NCBI GenBank assembly: GCA_913062645.1
Contig: CAJXVW010000001.1
Span: 372,001-436,000 of the forward strand
Direction of reading: 5' to 3'
DNA: 64,000 nucleotides
Source: an uncultured Mycoplasmatota bacterium
Lineage (GTDB): Bacteria; Bacillota_I; Bacilli_A; Izemoplasmatales; Izemoplasmataceae
The notes under the pieces are model-generated. The model had not been told where the DNA came from. It saw nothing but the letters and a program-made list of their open reading frames with translations, and ran no database searches. The position numbers and the translations under genes were made by a program. Positions 49,610 through 61,664 of this stretch are shown piece after piece. Within the stretch, counting starts at the first letter, position 1. Each line of letters opens with the position of its first letter.

Positions 49610-50926
49610 TTACTTGTAGGTGTCATCAAGATACTGGGCTTCAAAACCATCACTGAAGACGATTTGATCGTCCATGGTATACCAGATCGCTTCAAGGTTG
49701 TCGATGCCGTTGACGAACGCCAGTCCATCAATGAGCGGCATCGTGAAGATCGCCGTCGAATAGATGTCGGCCAGCGCCGGATCGTCGGTGACGATGCTGA
49801 CGGATCGGCTGTAGCGCTCCGGCATCAAGGTGTTGGGGTTGATGATGTGATGGTAAATTTCGCCGTCGACTTCGTAATATTGTTGGTAATCGCCGCTCGT
49901 GACCAACTGGTCGCCAGCGCTCAGATAGACAGTCGCGTAATAACTGGTTTCAAAGGTCGGATCGGTAATCGCCAGCAGGAATTTGCCGTTTTCCCTTGTC
50001 GGGTGCGTACCGCCGATTGAGATGTTGCTTTCTCCGTTATTGAGAAGATACCCATGCAGATTCAGACCATCGAGGTACTCGATCAAAACCCTGGAAATGA
50101 AGCCTTTGGACATGCCACCGAGATCAAGCGACATGCCTGATTCCATCGTAATCGTGTGGTTGGTTTCATCCATCGTTATGCCGGCGGGATCAGTGAAGGC
50201 GTTTCTTGCCTGCAACTGTTCCATCGGCGGAACCTCGCAGACAGGATCAGTGAAGTTGGTAAGACATGATTCACGATAATCATGCCACAGCAACAGAACG
50301 GGTCCGAGGGCGATATTGAACAGATCATCGACCTCATCTTGATGATCGAGAGCGAATTGGATCATGTCGAACAATGGTTCGTCAATCACGTGAGTTGCCG
50401 TCGGATCGTCGTTGATCGTTTTCACATTCGTGACGTTATTGTAGTTGTTGTACTTGTCGCTGAGTTTGTGATAGTAGTCGAGTAGCAATTCAACATTGTC
50501 GAAGATGTTTGCAACAGCACCATTGTACGTGTCACCTTGGTAGTAGATGCGGAGTTTGACAACGGTATGCAGATACTGTGTCCAGAACACCTGGCATTCG
50601 GTGAGATCGGTGCCATCGATTACCGTGCATCCGTCTTCTCGATAATAGACGGTACGCGTGAGCGTCCGGACGTCCCCTTCATAGTCAAGAGTATACGTCA
50701 CCGTATAGTCTCCAGCTTGCGTCGGATCGATGTCGCTGTCAATCGTAACATACTCGGACAGGTCCTCGTTGTTGACCCTTGCCAAGAAACCTTTTTCAAC
50801 ATAATCAGAATCAACAGTATACGATACTTCTGATTCCCCGATTAAGTCAAAAATAAGTTCTTTACTGCATGCGGTCAAAGTAGTTGTGGTAATTACAATG
50901 AGTGCGATAATGATGAATTTCTTCAT
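49610..50926 (-). CDS. apbE: FAD:protein FMN transferase (ApbE) lipoprotein with N-terminal Ig-like domain
   Basis: 438 residues. Signal peptide with lipobox LTAC. Residues about 25-100 look like a bacterial Ig-like (DUF5011-type) beta sandwich; the catalytic ApbE domain occupies about 105-438. Key motifs are DLGGMSKGF, and LVTSGDYQQYYEVDGEIYHH with INPNTLMPER after it, the FAD- and metal-binding loops. ApbE attaches FMN through a phosphodiester bond to Thr/Ser of RnfG, RnfD and FMN-binding lipoproteins. All these targets are encoded within 10 kb here. The extra N-terminal domain is uncommon; usual ApbE is about 330 residues. Confidence 0.92.
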   Translation of the reverse strand: MKKFIIIALIVITTTTLTACSKELIFDLIGESEVSYTVDSDYVEKGFLARVNNEDLSEYVTIDSDIDPTQAGDYTVTYTLDYEGDVRTLTRTVYYREDGCTVIDGTDLTECQVFWTQYLHTVVKLRIYYQGDTYNGAVANIFDNVELLLDYYHKLSDKYNNYNNVTNVKTINDDPTATHVIDEPLFDMIQFALDHQDEVDDLFNIALGPVLLLWHDYRESCLTNFTDPVCEVPPMEQLQARNAFTDPAGITMDETNHTITMESGMSLDLGGMSKGFISRVLIEYLDGLNLHGYLLNNGESNISIGGTHPTRENGKFLLAITDPTFETSYYATVYLSAGDQLVTSGDYQQYYEVDGEIYHHIINPNTLMPERYSRSVSIVTDDPALADIYSTAIFTMPLIDGLAFVNGIDNLEAIWYTMDDQIVFSDGFEAQYLDDTYK

Positions 50927-50975: not shown

Positions 50976-51002
50976 AAAAAAACTGGGGCAACCCAGTTTT
51001 TT
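50976..51002 (-). terminator. Rho-independent terminator of the minus-strand FMN lipoprotein gene
   Basis: AAAAACTGGG / CCCAGTTTTT stem with 4-base loop; on the minus strand it is followed by T. It overlaps the stop codon of the gene at 51001-51639. Confidence 0.85.
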
Positions 51003-51639
51003 AGCTACCGTAGTTTGCTTCGTGATAGGCAAGCAACTCTTTCATGACGCGGATCATGTTGTTGGTGGACACGCTGCTTCCGGTGTAGTCATCAATGAGA
51101 TCCTGATCATCGATTGTCACGGTATTGCTGATGCCGTGATAATCGCTGTTCTTGAAGACTTGAATGCCTTCCAGATCTTCGAGTGTTTTACCGATCAGCC
51201 AGGGAATGAATTCCGTTTCGAAATCATCCAATGTTTTGCCGGTGGGCGTCGGGTCGCTGTCGCCCCACATGCCGGCGGTATAGTGGCCATCTTCGCCATC
51301 GTGACCAAAGGAGATGGTGAGTAGCTCATTGGTGTTCAAATCGATTTCTACATAGGCAACCTGCCAGTAATTGACATCGGCGTTGCGGCAAGTACAGGAC
51401 AAGTACGTGACCTGGTATTTGACATAGTCGCGCAGTTTGTACTCGAATAAAATGTATGCGTTCTTGGTGGTTTCATCACCATGTCCATTGAGATGGGTGA
51501 ACGGCATGGCGTTGTCGGCAACGACACCGCCGTTATTGGTTTCTCCTGTCACACATTCCGGACCAACGCAGAGTTCGCCACAAGCGGAAAGGGTCACAAC
51601 GAAAACCAATGTGAGGAGCAGTAGGCTCAATTTTTTCAT
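51001..51639 (-). CDS. Lipoprotein with FMN-binding-like C-terminus
   Basis: 212 residues. Lipobox LSAC at residues 17-20 and two nearby cysteine pairs. The C-terminal half shows DDYTGSSVSTNNMIRVMKEL, which resembles the flavinylation motif D-x2-[ST]-G-[AS]-[ST] of FMN_bind domains, directly before the amphipathic helix that follows it in RnfG. It lies between apbE and a rhodanese lipoprotein, so it is likely a flavin-carrying surface protein. The domain is weakly conserved before the motif. Ribosome site AAGGAGG on the minus strand. Confidence 0.65.
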   Translation of the reverse strand: MKKLSLLLLTLVFVVTLSACGELCVGPECVTGETNNGGVVADNAMPFTHLNGHGDETTKNAYILFEYKLRDYVKYQVTYLSCTCRNADVNYWQVAYVEIDLNTNELLTISFGHDGEDGHYTAGMWGDSDPTPTGKTLDDFETEFIPWLIGKTLEDLEGIQVFKNSDYHGISNTVTIDDQDLIDDYTGSSVSTNNMIRVMKELLAYHEANYGS

Positions 51640-51734: not shown

Positions 51735-52559
51735 TCAGTTTATGATTAATGTTTCAATTAACGCCAACAGATCGTCGTCGAAGCCAAGTTCGTATTCGAC
51801 GATATCATGGCTGCCACTGGTATTGGCCGTCATCATGAGGTCGTAGAGTTCATTCATCGTCATCGGGTGTGTAACGATGAACTCTTCCAGTATGGTCAAC
51901 TGGTCATTGTAGTTCGTCAGACCATCGTAGAAGGATCCTCTCAAGGTGCGATTGTCGCTATCGACGATATCAAAACGGATTGACGTGATGTACTTTCCCA
52001 AATCCAGTTCACCGCTGACAAAATAGCGTCGGTGTGTCGTCTCACTGAGAAAATCAGTGTAGAACATATCGCCGTATCGGTAATCACCAGTACCCAAAAC
52101 CTTGTATTCTCCCAAATACTCATAAAATCCGCCCAAAGAGAAAACTCGTTCGTATCCAAGATGCCACAACGCCGCCTGTACATACTCGCTGCGCATGCAG
52201 CCGTCTGCATACAGGAAAATTGCTTTGTCTTGTTTGAACAATCGTTCAAGCTCGTACTGGTCAATGATCTGTGAGGGTTCGAACGCGAACGTGTCTGAGC
52301 GCTCGAACACCCGGTAGTCCAGATAATCGAAAAAGGGGATCTGTTCGAATCCGTCGATGTATCCGGCAGCAAACTTGGCATCGAAATTACGCAAATCAAC
52401 GTACTGAACATCGTCACGGTACATGTATTCGTCCAGATTCTCCATCGTGATCACAGTTTCAGCCGTAATCGGCAACGGTTCGTCAACCGGTTCTTCAACA
52501 CACCCAAGCAGGCTAATCAAAGCCATTGGAACGACCAGGTAGAGTAATCTTTTCATCAT
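51735..52559 (-). CDS. Rhodanese-like lipoprotein with altered active-site loop
   Basis: 274 residues. The signal peptide ends in a lipobox LLGC. Residues about 38-155 are a rhodanese domain (DDVQYVDLRNFD, YIDGFEQIPFFDYLDY), clearly paralogous to the protein at 60792. Its active-site loop reads YADGCMRSEYV where the paralogue has MCGSGTRAGYV, so the canonical cysteine position is alanine and a cysteine sits three places later. The C-terminal region corresponds to the FMN-binding domain of the paralogue but lacks a recognisable TGxT-type attachment motif. It may be a diverged scaffold or sulfur carrier. The start could be one codon later. Confidence 0.8.
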   Translation of the reverse strand: MMKRLLYLVVPMALISLLGCVEEPVDEPLPITAETVITMENLDEYMYRDDVQYVDLRNFDAKFAAGYIDGFEQIPFFDYLDYRVFERSDTFAFEPSQIIDQYELERLFKQDKAIFLYADGCMRSEYVQAALWHLGYERVFSLGGFYEYLGEYKVLGTGDYRYGDMFYTDFLSETTHRRYFVSGELDLGKYITSIRFDIVDSDNRTLRGSFYDGLTNYNDQLTILEEFIVTHPMTMNELYDLMMTANTSGSHDIVEYELGFDDDLLALIETLIIN

Positions 52560-52660: not shown

Positions 52661-52689
52661 TTCACATTTAGGGGTCTCTTTGTTATAAT
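52661..52689 (+). promoter_or_regulatory. Strong promoter of the hydrogenase-Rnf operon
   Basis: TTCACA (52661-52666) and TATAAT (52684-52689), 17 bases apart, with TG at the extended -10 position. It should start the whole 52.7-60.6 kb transcript, as no terminator is seen until 60612. Confidence 0.8.
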
Positions 52690-52734: not shown

Positions 52735-53088
52735 ATGACAACAAAGTCGCAAGACGTAAACGCGTTGTTCGAACAGTGGATTCTTGATGCCGAAACGCGT
52801 CTTCAGGAAGAAGACATGTTCACAAAAATCAAGAGTTATCTGGAAAGCACGCACCCCGAAATCTGCGGCAAGTGCATCCCCTGTCGCGACGGCGTTCCCA
52901 AGTTGGAACGATTGTTCGACAAGTACATCCAAGGCGAAGCGACGCTCAAGGACCTGAAGGAAATCGAGCGCATCGTATATAACCTCCGGGCAAGCCGATG
53001 CAGCGTGGGGCTCGACATTGGCAAGAACATGGAAGTCATACTCGAAAACAACTACAATGTGCTGTACAGCCCCGTGAAAAAATACTAA
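52735..53088 (+). CDS. NuoF/HydB C-terminal-type 4Fe-4S protein, stand-alone
   Basis: 117 residues. The ATG at 52735 follows AGAGGTG; an in-frame GTG overlaps that site. Residues 25-115 correspond only to the last, iron-sulfur domain of NuoF or hydrogenase HydB: HPEICGKCIPCRDGVPKLERL supplies three cysteines and ASRCSVGLDIGKN the fourth. The NADH- and FMN-binding modules that make up most of NuoF (about 430 residues) are absent. It should be a small electron-transfer subunit. As first gene of the hydrogenase-Rnf operon it may bridge the hydrogenase and RnfC. Confidence 0.83.
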   Translation: MTTKSQDVNALFEQWILDAETRLQEEDMFTKIKSYLESTHPEICGKCIPCRDGVPKLERLFDKYIQGEATLKDLKEIERIVYNLRASRCSVGLDIGKNMEVILENNYNVLYSPVKKY

Positions 53089-53103
53089 GGAGGATCCTAC
53101 CAC

Positions 53104-54804
53104 ATGGCGAAGATAACCATCAACGGACAACTTGTCAAAGTCAAAAAAGGTACGACCATCCTCAGTGCCGCCCGACAGCTGGGAATTGACATTCCGACGC
53201 TCTGCTTTCTCGAAGAGATCAACGAGATCGGCTTCTGCCGCATCTGCGTTGTCGAAGTGGAAGGCGAGCAGGATCTCATATCGGCCTGTAATACCGAGAT
53301 CACCAATGGCATGGTGATTCAAACCGACAGCGACAAAGTCCGCCAATCTCGTGAAGCAACCCTGCAACTACTGGCGTCCCGCCACCGTTTCGATTGCTGG
53401 CGCTGCCCGAAAGACGGCATGTGCGAGTTCTACGACTTGCTCAAGTCACATGACGTCGTCTTTGAAGAATTTGGTCCTGGAATCGGACGCTCGAGCGATC
53501 TGATTGCTGGCTCAGGTATTTCACAAGACCAGAGCAAATGCGTCCTCTGCAAACGCTGCGTGGCCGTATGCCAGAACGTCGTCACCGCCAACGTCCTGAA
53601 GTTCCGCGACGACGACGATCCGATGAATCCCATCGTCAGTCCGACCCCCGGTCTCGCGTTTGACGATGCCGGCTGCATCTTCTGTGGCCAGTGCGTCAAG
53701 GCCTGCCCCACCGGCACCCTGTTCGAAACCGATCACACCAATGACGTTCTCACCTTCCTGAGAAACAAGGACGATCATGTCGTGGTCCAACTCGATACCC
53801 GTGTCAACGGCGCCATCGCCGAGTCCTTCGGATACGACATCGACACCCCGTTCGAAGAAACGTTCGGCAAGACCGTCAAGGCTCTTGAACTGCTTGGCTT
53901 TGACACCGTAACGACACTCGATTACGGCGAGGACTACCACGCTCGCGCAACCGCCGAAGAGCTGTTGAAGCGATTGGAAGACAAAGACAACCTGCCTCTG
54001 TTCACGTCGAGTTGTCCTGCGTCTACGCGGTTCCTCGAACTGTATGAGCCCGAACGTCTCGATCACATCGCGACGGTCAAGTCGCCCCATATCCTCCAGG
54101 GTTCACAACTCAAACACAAGCTGCTGAAACAGAAACCAGCCAACACAAAGGTCGTCACGCTCAGCTCGTGCACGGCCAAGAAATACGAACGGACCAGAGA
54201 AGAACTTGTCACTGCCGGCGTCGCCGACGTCGATACGGCCCTGACCGTCCGTGAAATCACCAAACTGATGAAGCAAAAAGGCATCGCTTATCGCAATCTT
54301 GAAGCGGCCACGCCCGATCCCGCAGTCACCTCCGAACATGTTGCGGTTCAGGGCGGCGTCCTCGTTGCCGTTCTCAATGCGGCGCACCAGATCAAGACCG
54401 GCGAACCGCTCGCGGAACTCACGTTCAAGCATGTTCACGGCGAGAAGGAAAGCGATGGATTCATCGAAGAAGCTACCGTCCAACTTGGCGAAGCCAAACT
54501 CAATGTGGCTCGCGTCATCGGCGGTGCGGCCTTCAAGGAACTCTTCGCCCGATCGAACAAGAAGAACTACCATCTGATTGAGTTCCTGATGTGCCCCGGC
54601 GGCTGTCTCAATGGCGGCGGCATGCCGATACACAAAAACTTGACAACCCACGAGGTCATCGCTCGACGCGAAACGAGTTACTGCGACGGCGGAACCGATC
54701 TGCCCCTCAGCAACCCCCTGCACAATCATCTCGTCGACGACAACTTCGCCGATGATCCAAGCATTCATACCGGGTACTCGCAAAAAGAGTACCGGAAGGA
54801 ATAG
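53104..54804 (+). CDS. [FeFe] hydrogenase catalytic subunit with variant H-cluster pocket
   Basis: 566 residues. Modular layout as in Clostridium CpI: 2Fe-2S domain (CFLEEINEIGFCRIC to SAC, residues 1-80), His-ligated cluster HRFDCWRCPKDGMC, two 4Fe-4S motifs (CVLCKRCVAVCQ and CIFCGQCVKACP), then the H domain. The four H-cluster cysteines are present: C304 in L1 (FTSSCPAS), C356 in L2 (LSSCTAKKYE), C497 and C501 in L3 (FLMCPGGCLNGGGMP). The proton-relay cysteine of CpI (C299) is Ser303 here, and the L1 tryptophan and L2 methionine-proline are also replaced by serine-type residues. So it may be a slow, sensory-like or reversible enzyme. No HydEFG maturase gene is in the window. Confidence 0.93.
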   Translation: MAKITINGQLVKVKKGTTILSAARQLGIDIPTLCFLEEINEIGFCRICVVEVEGEQDLISACNTEITNGMVIQTDSDKVRQSREATLQLLASRHRFDCWRCPKDGMCEFYDLLKSHDVVFEEFGPGIGRSSDLIAGSGISQDQSKCVLCKRCVAVCQNVVTANVLKFRDDDDPMNPIVSPTPGLAFDDAGCIFCGQCVKACPTGTLFETDHTNDVLTFLRNKDDHVVVQLDTRVNGAIAESFGYDIDTPFEETFGKTVKALELLGFDTVTTLDYGEDYHARATAEELLKRLEDKDNLPLFTSSCPASTRFLELYEPERLDHIATVKSPHILQGSQLKHKLLKQKPANTKVVTLSSCTAKKYERTREELVTAGVADVDTALTVREITKLMKQKGIAYRNLEAATPDPAVTSEHVAVQGGVLVAVLNAAHQIKTGEPLAELTFKHVHGEKESDGFIEEATVQLGEAKLNVARVIGGAAFKELFARSNKKNYHLIEFLMCPGGCLNGGGMPIHKNLTTHEVIARRETSYCDGGTDLPLSNPLHNHLVDDNFADDPSIHTGYSQKEYRKE

Positions 54805-54815
54805 AAGGTGACCAC

Positions 54816-56036
54816 ATGATAACCGAATACCGACAATATCTCGATCCGAAGAAAGTCTGGATCCCCCTTACCGACGGCACCTTCAAACTGGCCAGTGTCC
54901 AAGTCGAACAAGACGACGCCGTCACGGCCGGACAAATCGTCGCCTACAAGTACAGCGGCAAATTGAAGACGCCGGTCCTGGCATCGATCACCGGCACCGT
55001 CGTTGGGTTCGAAGAACGTCTCGACCGTTTCAACAAATACGTGGATCACATCGTCATCGAACGATCCGATTCCAACCAGATGATCACCCATGAAGGCCTG
55101 GACGACGATGTCCCGGCGGCCATCATCCGACAGCGCATCGAAGACTGCGGACTCCGTCAGTTCAACGTCGACGGCCTCTATACCGACATTGCATTCGAAC
55201 GACCCATCAAGCACATTCTCGTCAATGCCATCTACGCCAATGAACCGTTCATCTCAACGGACTACGATTTCGTCAAGCAACACGCCGAGTTGATTGCGGA
55301 TGGCATCAAGCTGTTGCAACACGCCGCGCATGCTGAAACAGCCACGCTGATCGTCGACAAGTACATGGACGAGCAAACCTTGGAAGCACTTGGCAAAGCC
55401 ACCGTCGACAAAGGCATCGAGGTCGTGCAAGTCAACACCAAGCATGTCAACGGATGGGATTACCGCATTGCCAAACAACTGGTTGGCGAAACGATTTCTC
55501 CCAATCTCATCGACAATCAGATTCTGTACACGTCCGCCTATGCGGCCAAGCACATTCACGATGCCGTCCGCAACGGTCGTCCGCTCATCGAGCGTCAAGT
55601 CGCCATCACCGGTGATGCGCTCCGCGTCAACGTGCTCTACGACGTGCGTCTCGGCACGCGCCTCGAAGATCTCGTCGACGATCTCGGCGGATACGACGAC
55701 GGCGGCACCTACATGTGTCACGTCGGCAGTTTTCTGTCCGGCGAACAGGTCGCCGCGGATTCCTTCAGCGTTACCGCGACCGTCGACACCATCGATGTCA
55801 GCGCGTATCGCCAGGAACCGGAAGAAGTCTGCATCAAATGCGGCGAGTGCAACGACATTTGCCCCGCCGGCATCCTACCACAGAACATCATGGATGCGGA
55901 ACTCCGCAATGTCAACGCCCGCATCGTCGATCTGCATACCGACGAATGCATCGAATGCGGTTTGTGCAGTTATGTCTGTCCCTCGAAAATCAACGTACTG
56001 GAATGGGTGCGGCGTGCCAAACGCCGCGTCGGATAG
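54816..56036 (+). CDS. rnfC: RnfC-like subunit lacking the NADH/FMN-binding loop
   Basis: 406 residues, a little short for RnfC. Both C-terminal 4Fe-4S motifs are intact: CIKCGECNDICPAGILP (from C339) and CIECGLCSYVCPS. The N-terminal barrel-sandwich domain (AGQIVAYKYSGKLKTPV) is also present. The region that should hold the glycine-rich flavin/NADH loop (canonical GLGGAxFPTHxK) reads GLRQFNVDGLYTDIAFERP at about residues 112-130, only the later NEPFISTDY remaining like the canonical ECEPYxTxDY. The second nucleotide motif (YPxGxEKQL, NNVGTA) is lost as well, as is GGPMMG (here GGTYMC). So it probably cannot use NADH. It follows the hydrogenase gene by 11 bases. Confidence 0.9.
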   Translation: MITEYRQYLDPKKVWIPLTDGTFKLASVQVEQDDAVTAGQIVAYKYSGKLKTPVLASITGTVVGFEERLDRFNKYVDHIVIERSDSNQMITHEGLDDDVPAAIIRQRIEDCGLRQFNVDGLYTDIAFERPIKHILVNAIYANEPFISTDYDFVKQHAELIADGIKLLQHAAHAETATLIVDKYMDEQTLEALGKATVDKGIEVVQVNTKHVNGWDYRIAKQLVGETISPNLIDNQILYTSAYAAKHIHDAVRNGRPLIERQVAITGDALRVNVLYDVRLGTRLEDLVDDLGGYDDGGTYMCHVGSFLSGEQVAADSFSVTATVDTIDVSAYRQEPEEVCIKCGECNDICPAGILPQNIMDAELRNVNARIVDLHTDECIECGLCSYVCPSKINVLEWVRRAKRRVG

Positions 56037-56045
56037 GAGGAAACC

Positions 56046-57146
56046 ATGGAATTTACAATGAAAAAGCCACCTATCATCAGCAACCAGCAACGTTCCTACA
56101 AACGCTCCTTGAGCTTGCACATCTCACTCATCATCGTCAGTCTGACGGCGATTTTCACCCGTGCCTTCATTGCCGTCCCCGAGGGCGAATCATGGGTCCC
56201 CGACCAGATGTTCAAGACATTCTTGATGTTGTTCACGGGAGCGCTCGTGAGCGTCCTCATCGAACTCGTCTACTCGATCAGCGAAGGCACCAGTCAGGAG
56301 TTCAGCGAATATCGCCGGCTCGTCGATCCGATCAACACCGGGTTGCTCATCGCGCTGTTGCTTCCGACATCGACGCCGATGTATGTCCTGATTCTGGCCG
56401 TCGCCGTCGGCGTGTACGTCGGCAAAATCGTGTTCGGTGGTTATGGCTATTACATCTTCAATCCGGCCTTGGTCGGAGTGCTGTTCGCCACCATATCGTT
56501 CGCCACTCAGATTGAGTACGGCGACACACCGCTCGTGCTCTTGAAACAAGCGATTGAAGGCCAATCCTATAACTTTGAACTGATCGATCTCGTCCTCGGC
56601 AACTATGTCGCCGTGGCGATCGGCAGCACCAGCGTCATCGTCTTGGGTGGCGTGTTCATCTATTTGTCCATTACCCGTGTCATCGATCTGCGACTGAGCG
56701 GCACGTTCGTGCTGGCGATTCTCATTATCAGCGCAATCGTCGGATTCGTCAACTTCGGAGGTGCGATGTGGAACTACGTCTTCGTCAACATGATCACCGG
56801 CTTGACGATGTTCGGCGCCGTATTCCTCGTCGCCGAAACCGTCAGCAGCCCCACCTCACGGGAAGCGAAACTGATTTACGCCGTCGTGATCGCGATCATG
56901 ACGATGATGGTCCGGATTCTCGGAACCGAAGTCGAAGGCGTCGTCTTCGCCGTGCTTTTGGGTAACATGCTGGCGCCGTTCTTGAACCGTACCGTCACCC
57001 GCAGCAACAAGAAACTGTTCATTCAAACCAGCGTAATCCTCGCGGTGGTTGTGCTTCTCACCGGCTTCGTCCTTGGCTTCATCCTGCAAGGACGGTTGAT
57101 TGAAGCCTTCGACGCGATGATTCAATGGGGAGGGATGATCGCATGA
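56046..57146 (+). CDS. rnfD: RnfD membrane flavoprotein subunit
   Basis: 366 residues with about nine or ten membrane helices. RnfD/NqrB core: VDPINTGLLIALLLPTSTP, GYYIFNPALVG, LVLGNYVAVAIGSTS and MWNYVFVNMITGLTMFGAVFLV. The FMN attachment site, canonical S/TGATPL, reads YGDTPL here, so the flavin-bearing threonine seems kept but the preceding residues have changed. Ribosome site TAGGAGG. RnfD carries covalent FMN and riboflavin in the membrane. Overlaps rnfG by 4 bp. Confidence 0.92.
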   Translation: MEFTMKKPPIISNQQRSYKRSLSLHISLIIVSLTAIFTRAFIAVPEGESWVPDQMFKTFLMLFTGALVSVLIELVYSISEGTSQEFSEYRRLVDPINTGLLIALLLPTSTPMYVLILAVAVGVYVGKIVFGGYGYYIFNPALVGVLFATISFATQIEYGDTPLVLLKQAIEGQSYNFELIDLVLGNYVAVAIGSTSVIVLGGVFIYLSITRVIDLRLSGTFVLAILIISAIVGFVNFGGAMWNYVFVNMITGLTMFGAVFLVAETVSSPTSREAKLIYAVVIAIMTMMVRILGTEVEGVVFAVLLGNMLAPFLNRTVTRSNKKLFIQTSVILAVVVLLTGFVLGFILQGRLIEAFDAMIQWGGMIA

Positions 57147-59050
57147 AACCAGTAAAAATCGTCGTAATGCTCCTGGTTGTCGTGCTCGTCTCATCGGTTG
57201 GCGTATACTTTGTCGAAAGCATCACCACGCCGATCATTGAAGACCGTCGCGCCCAGGAAATCGAAGAAGCATTGCAAAGCATATTCCCCGCCATCGACGG
57301 AACCACCGACACCGTCACCTCGGACACCGACGTTGATTTCGGCACCACCGGAATTACCGACGTACTCGTCATCCGTGATGGCGACGACAATGTCAAAGGC
57401 TATGTCTACACCATGACCTTCCGTGGGTTCTCCTCGGAGATCATCTATCTGGTCGGCATCGACGCCGCCGGGGCAATCACCGGCTATCAGACGCTCCAGC
57501 AGAATGATACCGCCGGATACGGCGCGCAAATCGCCGACGAAGAGAACTGGACCCAGTTCACGGGCATGTCAATCGAGACCGCCGGCAACGGCGACTTCGA
57601 CGGACTGGCCGGAGCCACGGTCACGACCAACGCATGGAAGTCTTCCTTTGAAACCCTCTTCAACTTCCATCTCGACACCTACGGCTACACGCCGATGACC
57701 GACGAACAACTGCTGCTGCAGAAGAAGCAGACACTTGTCGGCAATGATCTCACCATCGAGTCCTACACGCCGGATCTCGCGCCGGGCGACTACGGCATCA
57801 CCGCCGTTGACGTCGCCACCGACGGCACGGACAATCAGGCGGTCATCTATACCGTTGAGTTCGTTGGGTACAACGCCACCGGCAGCAACACCTATCTGAT
57901 TGCGTTCGACCTGGCGACCAATGAAGTGCTTGGCGGAACCGCCCTGTCGAGCGACGACACCGAAGGATTCGGTGCTCTAATTCTGGACAATGCCAACTGG
58001 GCGGATTTCCCCGGAATGAGCCTTGAAGATGCCGAAGACGGCAACTTCGACGGCATCGCGGGAGCGACCGTTACAACGCTGGCCTGGAAACAAAGTCTGG
58101 TCGACGTCGGCATGTTCCACCGCGTCGAGTTTCTCGGTGAAACGCCACGCACCGTCGAATCGCTGAGCGAACTGCTCTTCCCCGGAGCCGACCGCTTCAC
58201 CAACGTCACCAGTGAAAAGCCCTTCGGCACAATGATCGAGGGCGTCTATGACGTGTTCGACGATCTCGGTGCCAAACTGGGAACCGTCTACCACGTGCAG
58301 ACCATCGGTGCCAGTTACGCCGAACTCACGACCATCGAGTTCCTGATCGGCATCGACACCGCGGACAACTTCACCGGTTTCTACATGCTCGACGACTCGG
58401 AAACGCCGGGACGCGCCGACGCGTTCTACGCCGACGATTACGGCGATACCATCGAGGGTGTCGCGATCACCGATGATTATGAACTGGACGCCGTTGGCGG
58501 AAGCACGATTACGTACAACGTGATCACCGCGGCCATCGACGAGGTCGTCCATTATCATCAGACCAAATACATTCTCCTTCCGGAACGCATCATGGATGCA
58601 CTTGCGGAAGCATACCCCGGCGCCGTCTCGTTCGAGAGTGTCTACAGCGACTACGACTTCGACGCCACCATCAACAACCTGTACGCCGCCAAGGACGGCA
58701 GCGATGCCGTCATCGGTTACGTCTACTACGCCACCGCAACCGGATACTCCGGTAACATCATTGAATTCATGTGGGGCGTCGACAACAGCGGTGTCGCCCA
58801 GCAACTCTACATCATGAACGACACCCAGTCCTGGGACGACGCGACGTACGCCGGATACGACGGCGCGTTCGGTACCGATTTCAACACATCGACCTGGCTT
58901 GATCTGTTCGAGGGAGTGACCTTCCAGTCGATCCTCGACACCGAAGTCATCGATGCCGCCGGCGTGTCGACCACAACCGGTGGCATGAAAGTGTCGCTCG
59001 AACGAATCGCCCAATATCACGCCGATCAAAACGTAGGAGGTGCTAGCTGA
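57143..59050 (+). CDS. rnfG: Giant RnfG with four FMN-binding modules
   Basis: 635 residues, more than three times the usual RnfG (about 190). One N-terminal membrane anchor (about 5-25) is followed by four consecutive FMN_bind domains outside the cell. Their attachment motifs are GLAGATVTT (Thr159), GIAGATVTT (Thr309), AVGGSTITY (Thr455) and AAGVSTTT (Ser609), spaced about 150 residues apart. The first two are canonical and nearly identical in sequence; the third and fourth diverge but keep Gly and Thr/Ser. The ATG at 57143 follows GGGGAGGG; the frame extends 6 codons further up through that site. Four covalent FMN would make a flavin wire. Target of ApbE. Confidence 0.92.
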   Translation: MKPVKIVVMLLVVVLVSSVGVYFVESITTPIIEDRRAQEIEEALQSIFPAIDGTTDTVTSDTDVDFGTTGITDVLVIRDGDDNVKGYVYTMTFRGFSSEIIYLVGIDAAGAITGYQTLQQNDTAGYGAQIADEENWTQFTGMSIETAGNGDFDGLAGATVTTNAWKSSFETLFNFHLDTYGYTPMTDEQLLLQKKQTLVGNDLTIESYTPDLAPGDYGITAVDVATDGTDNQAVIYTVEFVGYNATGSNTYLIAFDLATNEVLGGTALSSDDTEGFGALILDNANWADFPGMSLEDAEDGNFDGIAGATVTTLAWKQSLVDVGMFHRVEFLGETPRTVESLSELLFPGADRFTNVTSEKPFGTMIEGVYDVFDDLGAKLGTVYHVQTIGASYAELTTIEFLIGIDTADNFTGFYMLDDSETPGRADAFYADDYGDTIEGVAITDDYELDAVGGSTITYNVITAAIDEVVHYHQTKYILLPERIMDALAEAYPGAVSFESVYSDYDFDATINNLYAAKDGSDAVIGYVYYATATGYSGNIIEFMWGVDNSGVAQQLYIMNDTQSWDDATYAGYDGAFGTDFNTSTWLDLFEGVTFQSILDTEVIDAAGVSTTTGGMKVSLERIAQYHADQNVGGAS

Positions 59051-59688
59051 TGGCCCGCAAACAGAAATCATTAAGTGATGTCTTCACCGCTGGCTTCTTC
59101 AAGCAGAATCCGGTCTTCGTACAATTTCTCGGCATGTGTCCGACGCTCGCCGTCACCGGCAGTGTCGAAAGCGCGATCGGGATGGGCGCGGGCGTCATCT
59201 TCGTCCTCGTGTTGTCGAATCTGATCATCTCGCTGATCCGCAGCGCCGTACCGCGCGAAGTCCGCATTCCGATCTACATCGTCGTCATCGCCTCGTTCGT
59301 GACGATGCTGGAAATGCTGATGAACGCATTTGTCCCCGATCTGGCGGCCCAGCTGGGAACCTTCCTCAGCTTGATCGTCGTCAACTGTCTGATTCTCGGC
59401 CGCGCCGAAGCGTTCGCTTCCAAAAACGGACCCGTGCGCAGCGTGCTGGACGGACTCGGCATGGGCATCGGGTTCACCGGTGGCATCACCTTGCTGGCGT
59501 TCTTCCGTGAACTGCTCGGCAAGGGATCAATCACCATCTGGGGCGATTTCGCCTTGAATCTGATTCCCAGCGACTTCCAGATCTCGATTCTCGTGGCTCC
59601 TGCCGGCGCGTTCCTCGTGTTCGGCATCCTTGTATCGCAGATCAACAAAATCAAACTCCGCCGTGCGGAGCAAGGCGAGGTGGCGTAA
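59050..59688 (+). CDS. rnfE: RnfE membrane subunit
   Basis: 212 residues, six membrane helices. The two half-membrane cysteine motifs that share a 2Fe-2S cluster with RnfA are present: FLGMCPTLAVTGS near residue 29 and VVNCLILGRAEAFAS near residue 115. The length and sequence are normal. The start overlaps the rnfG stop by one base, behind GTAGGAGG. It lies in canonical order (C-D-G-E-A-B). Confidence 0.95.
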   Translation: MARKQKSLSDVFTAGFFKQNPVFVQFLGMCPTLAVTGSVESAIGMGAGVIFVLVLSNLIISLIRSAVPREVRIPIYIVVIASFVTMLEMLMNAFVPDLAAQLGTFLSLIVVNCLILGRAEAFASKNGPVRSVLDGLGMGIGFTGGITLLAFFRELLGKGSITIWGDFALNLIPSDFQISILVAPAGAFLVFGILVSQINKIKLRRAEQGEVA

Positions 59689-59691
59689 TCC

Positions 59692-60303
59692 ATGGAATTC
59701 ATCGCAATCGCATTTGGCGCCATTTTCGTCAATAACGTCGTACTCAATCAGTTCTATGGTCTGTGCCCCTTTCTAGGGGTATCAACCAAGAAATCCAGCG
59801 CCTTCTCGATGGGCATGGCCGTTACTTTCGTCATCACGCTGTCGACGATGATTGCCTACACCATCTACAATCAGGTGCTCGTACCCAACAACATCGAATA
59901 TCTGTCCACGATCGTCTTCATCCTGGTCATCGCATCGTTCGTCCAGCTCGTGGAAATGGTCATCAAGAAATTCTCCAGCGCAATCTACAGCGCGCTCGGC
60001 GTGTATCTCCCGCTGATCACAACCAACTGCGCCGTGCTCGGGGTCGCCATCGACGTGACCGTCAACGGCACCGGTTCGCAGAAGTTGCTGATGGCCTCGG
60101 GCGTCGCACCGACCTTCTGGCAGGCGACCGTCTACGCCCTCGGCATCTCGCTCGGCTATGCGATCGTCATCTTCCTGTTCTCGGCGATTCGTGAAGAAAT
60201 GGACGCCTACCCGATCAAGAAGAACTGGCAAGGCATTCCGATCGCGCTCATCACCGCGTTCATCATGGCGATGATCTTTAGCGGATTCGGAGGGGTGATC
60301 TGA
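59692..60303 (+). CDS. rnfA: RnfA membrane subunit
   Basis: 203 residues, six membrane helices. Cysteine motifs YGLCPFLGVSTKK near residue 25 and TTNCAVLGVAID near 112 pair with those of RnfE. The family's FILVIASFVQLVEM helix is present. Normal length. Three bases separate it from rnfE and one base overlaps rnfB, so the membrane core of the complex looks complete and functional. Confidence 0.95.
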   Translation: MEFIAIAFGAIFVNNVVLNQFYGLCPFLGVSTKKSSAFSMGMAVTFVITLSTMIAYTIYNQVLVPNNIEYLSTIVFILVIASFVQLVEMVIKKFSSAIYSALGVYLPLITTNCAVLGVAIDVTVNGTGSQKLLMASGVAPTFWQATVYALGISLGYAIVIFLFSAIREEMDAYPIKKNWQGIPIALITAFIMAMIFSGFGGVI

Positions 60304-60608
60304 TGGTTGTCGTCATTGTATTGGCCGTTGTCATCAGTGTCGTCCTCGCGCTCCTCTTGTGGGGCGCCAGCGTGGTCTTCCATGTCGAGGAGGATCCGCG
60401 GCTGCAAGACATCATCGATTTGCTTCCCAATCAGAACTGCGGACTCTGCGGCAACCCCGGTTGCAAGGGGATGGCCGAGGCGATCCTCCGCGAGGACGCC
60501 AAACTGTCACAATGCAAGCCGGGCGACCAGGCAATGCGCGAAGACATTCGTGATTACCTGGCCGAGCATCCCAACGAAGCCGGCGAGTACGTGAAAGTCA
60601 AGATGTAA
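60303..60608 (+). CDS. rnfB: Minimal RnfB: membrane anchor plus one 4Fe-4S motif, no ferredoxin domain
   Basis: 101 residues, against 180-330 in usual RnfB. One membrane helix (about 2-24) is followed by the conserved LLPNQNCGLCGNPGCKGMAE and a fourth cysteine in SQCKPGD, the four-cysteine cluster of the RnfB hydrophilic domain. The two or more C-terminal CxxCxxCxxxCP ferredoxin clusters are missing. The gene ends with a normal stop codon followed directly by a terminator, and no cysteine-rich sequence follows in any frame, so this is not a fresh frameshift. Ferredoxin docking at RnfB is therefore doubtful. Confidence 0.92.
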   Translation: MVVVIVLAVVISVVLALLLWGASVVFHVEEDPRLQDIIDLLPNQNCGLCGNPGCKGMAEAILREDAKLSQCKPGDQAMREDIRDYLAEHPNEAGEYVKVKM

Positions 60609-60611
60609 CAC

Positions 60612-60643
60612 AAAAGCACCCCCTCGAGGGTGCTTTTTTTTTG
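60612..60643 (+). terminator. Rho-independent terminator of the hydrogenase-Rnf operon
   Basis: AAAAGCACCC / GGGTGCTTTT stem, 6-base loop, run of T. Confidence 0.92.
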
Positions 60644-60791: not shown

Positions 60792-61664
60792 TTACTCAGC
60801 TTGGCCGATTGCTTCTTCGAAGGCCAGTTTGAGACCATCAATCGATACGGTGACACCGGCGAAATCATCGAAATGTCCATCGGTGATTGCCCATGCATCG
60901 TCCCAACCTTGGTTGTCGAGGATGGCTTCAGCGAGGGTGTTCGCCTGGGTGAACCAGAAGTTTTCGCCGTCGGGGCTGGTATCCATGTCATATCCTTCGC
61001 CGAGAGCTTGCTTGGTGGTCCAGTATGAGTTGTCGGTCTCAGGATCGCGATCCGGATCTTTTTCATACAGGGCGTCGAGGATGACTTCTTCGATGCCGCC
61101 TTTTTCGTTGATGACGACGGTGGCCATGTAGCCGGAGTCTTCATCAAGACCGAAATAGGTGCCCGGGGTGTAGTCGCCTTTGACAAGCGGGTTCAGGGTG
61201 TATGATCCGTCGCCGAGGACTTTGTTGTCGCCCGTGTAGTCGGCGATGCCGCCAACGTTGTAGACGTTCTCGTATCCGAGTTCTTCGAGAGCGGCCATTA
61301 CATAGCCGGCACGGGTGCCGCTGCCGCACATCAAGAAGATCGTTTTGTCCATGTCGAACAGGGCGGTGAGGCCAGATTCGCTGAGGATTTCATCGGCTTC
61401 GAATTCCCAGTCGCCATCGCGAACGAGGATGCCTTCATACTCAAGATAATCGAAGAACGGGATGAATTCAAATCCTGCGATATATCCGGCGTTCATTTTG
61501 TCGTCGAAGTTGCGCAGATCAACATACTGGACGTCGGATCTACCGAGGTACTCATCGATGTTCTCCATGTCGACTTCGTCGGGAATGTCAGGCAGGTTGT
61601 TGCCGCATCCGGCGAGAGCCAATGTCAGAGCAAATGCTACAAACAATAATGCAAACTTTTTCAT
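60792..61664 (-). CDS. Lipoprotein with rhodanese and FMN-binding domains
   Basis: 290 residues. Lipobox LAGC (Cys20). Residues about 38-150 are a rhodanese domain with intact active-site loop MCGSGTRAGYV. Residues about 160-290 are an FMN_bind-like domain: strands around GYMATVVINEKGGIEEV and then DDFAGVTVSIDGLKLAF, whose AGVT matches the FMN-attachment site with a Thr. ApbE could flavinylate it. The combination suggests a surface protein that handles both sulfur and electrons, perhaps persulfide or polysulfide reduction. It is a paralogue of 51735-52559 and is driven by a perfect consensus promoter. Confidence 0.87.
   Translation of the reverse strand: MKKFALLFVAFALTLALAGCGNNLPDIPDEVDMENIDEYLGRSDVQYVDLRNFDDKMNAGYIAGFEFIPFFDYLEYEGILVRDGDWEFEADEILSESGLTALFDMDKTIFLMCGSGTRAGYVMAALEELGYENVYNVGGIADYTGDNKVLGDGSYTLNPLVKGDYTPGTYFGLDEDSGYMATVVINEKGGIEEVILDALYEKDPDRDPETDNSYWTTKQALGEGYDMDTSPDGENFWFTQANTLAEAILDNQGWDDAWAITDGHFDDFAGVTVSIDGLKLAFEEAIGQAE

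Follow-up and report, generated by a model that had tools for sequence, protein, structure and literature searches.

A conserved Rnf operon of Izemoplasmatales with an apparent hydrogenase-derived arm in place of the NADH module of RnfC

We analyzed a 64,000-nucleotide stretch of the genome of an uncultured Mycoplasmatota bacterium of the family Izemoplasmataceae (contig CAJXVW010000001.1, positions 372,001 to 436,000; hereafter, the window), in which eight co-directed genes encode an NuoF-type iron-sulfur protein, an [FeFe] hydrogenase homolog and a set of Rnf subunits. The genome is 1.99 Mb in size and 99.7% complete. The operon, on the forward strand, consists of nuoF-FeS (52735..53088), which encodes a protein of 117 amino acids (mini-NuoF), hydA (53104..54804; 566 amino acids, PF02906, with an A6-like NCBIfam match below the cut-off), rnfC (54816..56036; TIGR01945 and matches to RnfC structures in the PDB), rnfD (56046..57146; PF03116), rnfG (57143..59050; 635 amino acids, with PF04205 in three stretches and TIGR01947 in four), rnfE (59050..59688; TIGR01948, above the cut-off), rnfA (59692..60303; TIGR01943) and a short rnfB (60303..60608). 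All six Rnf subunits (A, B, C, D, E and G) are encoded, several of them scoring below the NCBIfam cut-offs; a weak PrdC match was also seen in the operon in an NCBIfam-type search. The gaps between consecutive genes are 15, 11, 9, -4, -1, 3 and -1 bases. The genes are preceded by an extended -10 promoter of the sigma70 type (52661..52689, forward strand; TTCACA-17-TATAAT, 11/12, with TG before the -10 element), and the only strong terminator on this strand is an intrinsic one 3' of rnfB (60612..60637; a 10-pair stem with a T tail); chance alone would be expected to produce matches such as the weak terminator-like one at 56933 on the same strand. An earlier note on this DNA, made from the sequence alone, had described a single operon with gaps of 15 bases or less, and this description stands, with eight open reading frames between one promoter and one strong terminator. 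The operon is a genuine unit and not a chance arrangement because the gene order recurs in 17 further genomes of the same family and in three genomes of another.

A close form of the operon RnfC is present in 18 of the 90 genomes of the order, that of the window included; the others are 49-68% identical to it, and canonical RnfC about 30%. In these 18 genomes, which belong to the window's family within Izemoplasmatales (f1), the genes for an ApbE flavin transferase, a lipoprotein and a rhodanese-like lipoprotein on the reverse strand are followed by nuoF-FeS, hydA and rnfCDGEAB, as far as the contigs reach, and a second rhodanese-like lipoprotein is often encoded after rnfB. The core gene order is also found, with the same proviso on contig ends, in three genomes of a second family (f5) that belongs to a small order of the same class. 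Together, these genomes yield the set of 21 orthologs, including the window, that is compared below. No further carriers outside the two families were detected in samples of the class (395 genomes) and the phylum (392 genomes), where the best other match (G237) was an ordinary RnfC cluster; a single-protein scan of genome contigs returned only two close relatives, Candidatus Izimaplasma ZiA1 and UBA3566. The genome search for rnfC beside an [FeFe] hydrogenase gene, suggested along with the initial description of the locus, came to 21 operons, all of which share the loss of RnfC motifs.

Specifically, the GLGGxxFPTH and ECEP motifs that are associated with flavin mononucleotide (FMN) and reduced nicotinamide adenine dinucleotide (NADH) are replaced in 21/21 operon RnfC sequences (one of them partial), with VDGLYT-like and NEPF-like sequences occupying the places of the glycine-rich loop and ECEP in the window's family. 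Both motifs are retained in the other RnfC of the genome and in RnfC proteins in the PDB. The lack of an NADH site, which had been claimed for the window RnfC, is confirmed in all orthologs, and both C-terminal [4Fe-4S] motifs are present in every aligned sequence that reaches that far. Mini-NuoF consists of the N3-type [4Fe-4S] domain of NuoF/HydB alone (PF10589, E=1.7e-13), with no other credible domain; the best match in the PDB is the C-terminal region of HydB from the Thermotoga maritima hydrogenase, and the CxxCxxC motif and the subsequent cysteine are retained in the aligned sequences of the window's family. Jointly, RnfC and mini-NuoF comprise the domain set of HydB (Complex1_51K, SLBB, the N3 domain and two [4Fe-4S] clusters), which is also that of the HydB proteins encoded elsewhere in the genome. 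The window RnfB consists of a transmembrane helix and one [4Fe-4S] domain (101 amino acids, PF04060 only). The absence of a ferredoxin domain had been noticed before and is borne out, but it is not specific to this complex: the RnfB of the canonical cluster in the same genome (L009:15503-15808) is also 101 amino acids long and lacks that domain, so that the short RnfB is a trait of the lineage and was rejected as a mark of a hydrogenase-Rnf complex.

The HydA protein combines 2Fe-2S, His-type 4Fe-4S and two 4Fe-4S domains with the catalytic Fe_hyd_lg_C domain, and its 16 N-terminal Fe-S ligands are invariant in all orthologs. An alignment of the active site (residues in CpI numbering) shows the substitutions C299S, E279T, S319A, M353S, P354S and M497L in the window. 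Three of the four residues of the proton path (C299, E279, S319 and E282, here S, T, A and E) are lost, and among the pocket residues M353, K358, F417, G418 and M497, only K358 is retained, whereas all four equivalents of the H-cluster cysteines of group A [FeFe] hydrogenases (C300, C355, C499 and C503) are in place. In CpI, C299A/S or E279A/Q leaves less than 1% of the activity, and S319A leaves 6% (PMC6226526). Thus, judging from these residues, the H2 end of the window HydA is probably dead. Across the ortholog set, the H2 site is intact in 8 operons and altered in 13, with position 299 of the altered forms occupied by S, T, H, I, W or V. AlphaFold models built from three-row alignments were poor (mean predicted local distance difference test score, pLDDT, of 50 for HydA and 47 for RnfC) and were set aside. 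Loss of the maturation machinery was considered as a cause of HydA decay and rejected: of 18 genomes, 15, that of the window among them, encode a HydF that scores above the cut-off.

The earlier note interpreted the locus as an active ion-translocating, H2-linked Rnf, Ech-like in function, in which electrons would pass from ferredoxin to protons, or in reverse, via RnfB, RnfA/E, RnfG, RnfD, RnfC, NuoF-FeS and HydA. The retention of all Rnf subunits and Fe-S ligands, the complete CpI-like pocket in the orthologs from 8 of 21 genomes, the presence of HydF and the universal loss of FMN in RnfC, which would follow if HydA had taken the place of NAD at the end of the chain, all fit such a system. 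However, for the window, the disappearance of three proton-path and several pocket residues, together with the variety of residues at position 299 in the lost forms, which argues against a maintained catalytic role, makes this interpretation quite unlikely, and H2 activity coupled to ion transport appears unlikely in this copy. What holds of the original proposal is a conserved Rnf variant with a hydrogenase-derived arm where RnfC normally has its NADH module. Because 8 of the 21 orthologous operons carry an intact H-cluster pocket, an Rnf that is truly linked to H2 is probable among the relatives.

Alternatively, the HydA arm could be a low-activity H2 sensor that regulates Rnf, similar to the HydS-type hydrogenases that lack the proton-relay cysteine. 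The retained [4Fe-4S]H cysteines and K358 in the window are compatible with this possibility, as is the low residual activity of T. maritima HydS, which has Ala at position 299 (PMC6226526). However, a domain search of the window HydA detected no PAS or signaling domain, the pocket substitutions of the lost forms differ between genera, and two orthologs (L051 and L106) have lost H-cluster ligands, three of the four in one and all four in the other; we consider a sensor role very unlikely.

The lost forms of HydA do not look like decaying genes. Among the positions invariant in the intact forms, 74 of 101 in the N domain and 18 of 136 in the C domain are still invariant in the lost forms. The C domains of lost pairs share 0.39 identity, compared with 0.70 for intact pairs, with N-domain values of 0.71 and 0.74, respectively, and at equal N-domain identity the C domain of lost pairs is far more divergent. 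Mapping the intact and lost states onto a tree of the other operon parts and the HydA N domain requires 5 changes, at least 4 of which are forced by well-supported branches, and, without regain, implies about six losses; long branches leave some joins in this tree uncertain, notably that of L106. For the C domain, an intact pair gives a ratio of nonsynonymous to synonymous substitution rates (dN/dS) of about 0.13; the ratio is 0.23-0.37 when lost forms are paired with intact ones and 0.055 in an old lost pair that comes from outside the window's genus, the window's own pairs being saturated at synonymous sites. This pattern suggests that constraint was first relaxed and later renewed. Because the frames are open in all members and the old lost pair is under purifying selection, we rejected the possibility that hydA is decaying into a pseudogene.

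Repeated loss of the H2 site in a domain that is still under selection would also be expected if the HydA C domain were a mere scaffold of a ferredoxin-to-extracellular-flavin pump that runs through RnfB, RnfA/E and RnfG, with no physiological current in the arm. The invariance of the 16 HydA ligands in all 21 orthologs, along with that of the mini-NuoF and RnfC ligands in the sequences aligned over them, is hard to explain without such a current, and this version of events seems unlikely to us.

The interpretation that we favor, with modest confidence, is a variant Rnf in which a hydrogenase-derived arm has been grafted onto RnfC and now serves, in the window's genus, as a non-hydrogenase Fe-S relay. 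RnfC would have lost the FMN/NADH module and gained in its place a detached N3-type Fe-S domain of NuoF and a HydA homolog; in effect, the HydA-HydB core of a trimeric hydrogenase would have been transplanted onto Rnf. The ancestral arm very probably functioned as an active hydrogenase, and in the window's genus it most likely acts without H2 catalysis. Assuming that the products assemble into one complex, the predicted electron wire would extend from the N domain of HydA through the N3 cluster of mini-NuoF and the two [4Fe-4S] clusters of RnfC to RnfD and the flavins of RnfG. Because the H2 end of the window arm is probably dead, a soluble low-potential carrier, most likely ferredoxin, is the candidate inner partner, and on the outside, the multi-flavin RnfG might hand electrons to flavin-carrying lipoproteins. 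In the relatives with an intact HydA, the same arm could connect H2 to the Rnf loop. In this scheme, the gene content, its conservation, the lost motifs and the purifying selection are observed, and the assembly of the complex, its loss of activity, the identity of the carrier, the direction of electron flow and the coupling to ion translocation are inferred.

The genes around the operon are compatible with such an outer branch. RnfG contains three to four tandem FMN_bind domains, with flavinylation-like motifs at amino acids 153, 303 and 449, and, at 635 amino acids, differs from the single-domain RnfG of about 200 amino acids in the canonical cluster of the genome. The conserved flanks, all on the reverse strand and syntenic, include an ApbE flavin transferase lipoprotein (49610..50926; PF02424, E=4e-49), a lipoprotein without a Pfam match that carries the flavinylation-like motif DDYTGSSVST (51001..51639), a rhodanese-like lipoprotein (51735..52559; PF00581) and, beyond rnfB, another rhodanese-like lipoprotein (60792..61664; PF00581) with the flavin-like motif DDFAGVTVS identified by motif scan. 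Besides the window, at least eight orthologs share the flavinylation-like motif of the neighboring lipoprotein. Thus, the suggested link to an extracytoplasmic flavin chain is upheld by the multi-FMN RnfG, ApbE and the flavin-motif lipoprotein. In the alignment, the covalent-FMN motif of RnfD, DGVxGATPL, is cut down to GDTPL, with the Thr position retained in the window's family and occupied by Tyr in the second family.

Several points weigh against the relay interpretation. With the four [4Fe-4S]H cysteines retained, the H-cluster could still assemble in the window HydA, and, HydF being present, maturation appears possible. The attachment of covalent FMN to the operon RnfD is uncertain given the shortened motif. 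Ferredoxin is most likely the carrier that faces HydA, but its docking is proposed only because the accessory-cluster domain of CpI offers an analogy. Finally, the complete RnfB-A-E path next to the C-D path would be more in keeping with a full loop than with flow in the outward direction alone.

The genome encodes four Rnf/Nqr-type clusters, including that of the window. One of these is a canonical rnfCDGEAB (L009:11061-15808) with an intact GLGGSGFPTH motif; therefore, energy conservation does not depend on the hydrogenase-Rnf complex, and the second normal rnf cluster that the earlier note had named among the refutations of its model exists. In another cluster, cydAB lies directly upstream of rnfDGEA, without rnfB or rnfC (L009:830-5952; G000:C1:605829-610951); of ten genomes searched, five encode CydB, and in all five an RnfE/A pair is located about 1.7 kb away from it. 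In the fourth cluster (L010:7521-11362), rnfDGEA is accompanied by an NqrF-like subunit, and NqrA and RnfC are missing; a lipoprotein that contains at least five cytochrome-b5-like repeats is encoded after it (L010:13841-15439). The same genome contains two hydrogenase clusters with an intact HydA pocket (L098:12425-16838 and L099:7930-10907), a HydABC-like cluster (L098:4363-8284; G000:C2) in which HydA has A, G, G and A where the four H-cluster cysteines would be, and a similarly degenerate HydA at L100:4874-6580. Of the HydA paralogs examined besides the operon proteins, only L098:6479 and L100:4874 are fully degenerate; the rest are intact, although TSCSP replaces TSCCP in some. A HydA of the TSCSP form, with one Cys in the L1 motif and the other pocket residues kept, occurs in L077, L080, L087, L089, L090, L092, L093, L104 and L105, as in HydA1 of Acetobacterium woodii.

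In the open-access literature searched, we found no description of a hydrogenase-bearing Rnf, although the 2016 Izimaplasma genome paper may remark on the gene order; the ZiA1 genome announcement refers to two Rnf complexes and, separately, to hydrogenases. The replacement of the NADH module by a HydA/HydB-like arm in a conserved form implies that Rnf has an exchangeable cytosolic end, and the occurrence of both intact and decayed HydA in operons that are otherwise identical amounts to a natural experiment on the conversion of a hydrogenase into a plain electron carrier. RnfC homologs are known as electron adaptors to other enzymes, as in MetVF-RnfC2, PduS and PrdC, but not in a full Rnf with a hydrogenase.

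Rnf is taken as a link between ferredoxin and NAD. In structures of ordinary Rnf, the RnfC clusters accept electrons from the riboflavin of RnfD, and FMN then reduces NAD+ (PMC9588780, PMC11889175). With the Rnf of A. woodii and Clostridium tetanomorphum, the window operon shares six homologous subunits, the two [4Fe-4S] clusters of RnfC, the RnfA/E core and a flavin-binding RnfG; it differs in that RnfC lacks the FMN/NADH motifs, mini-NuoF and HydA are added, RnfG is multi-FMN, the covalent-FMN motif of RnfD is altered, and RnfB has 101 amino acids (the latter also in the normal Rnf of the genome). The trimeric bifurcating HydABC has a homologous HydA and, in HydB, the domain set of RnfC plus mini-NuoF, the latter matching a region of T. 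maritima HydB, but the window operon has no gene for HydC (NuoE-like) and no FMN/NADH motif, its HydA pocket is degenerate, and it is joined to Rnf membrane subunits. The modularity of Rnf/Nqr is already known (PMC12174285, PMC8238504, PMC11334425), and the Nqr/Rnf-like flavinylated systems (PMC8238504, PMC11334425) likewise feature an RnfD-type subunit without a clear flavinylation site, extracytosolic FMN_bind proteins and a nearby ApbE. However, those are two-subunit systems with an NqrF-type NAD(P)H domain, whereas the window RnfD has PF03116 alone, and the main text of neither report mentions hydrogenase or RnfC. Ech and Mbh resemble the intact relatives in the function proposed for the latter, the coupling of ion translocation to H2 and ferredoxin, but the present operon is built from [FeFe] hydrogenase and Rnf parts, and the hydrogenase site is degenerate in the window. 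Tentatively, the relatives with intact HydA might possess an energy-converting [FeFe] hydrogenase based on Rnf, whose architecture would be a third one next to those of Ech and Mbh; the window's lineage, among several, may have turned it into a non-hydrogenase conduit from ferredoxin to extracellular flavin, with the H-cluster site lost and the Fe-S wire kept.

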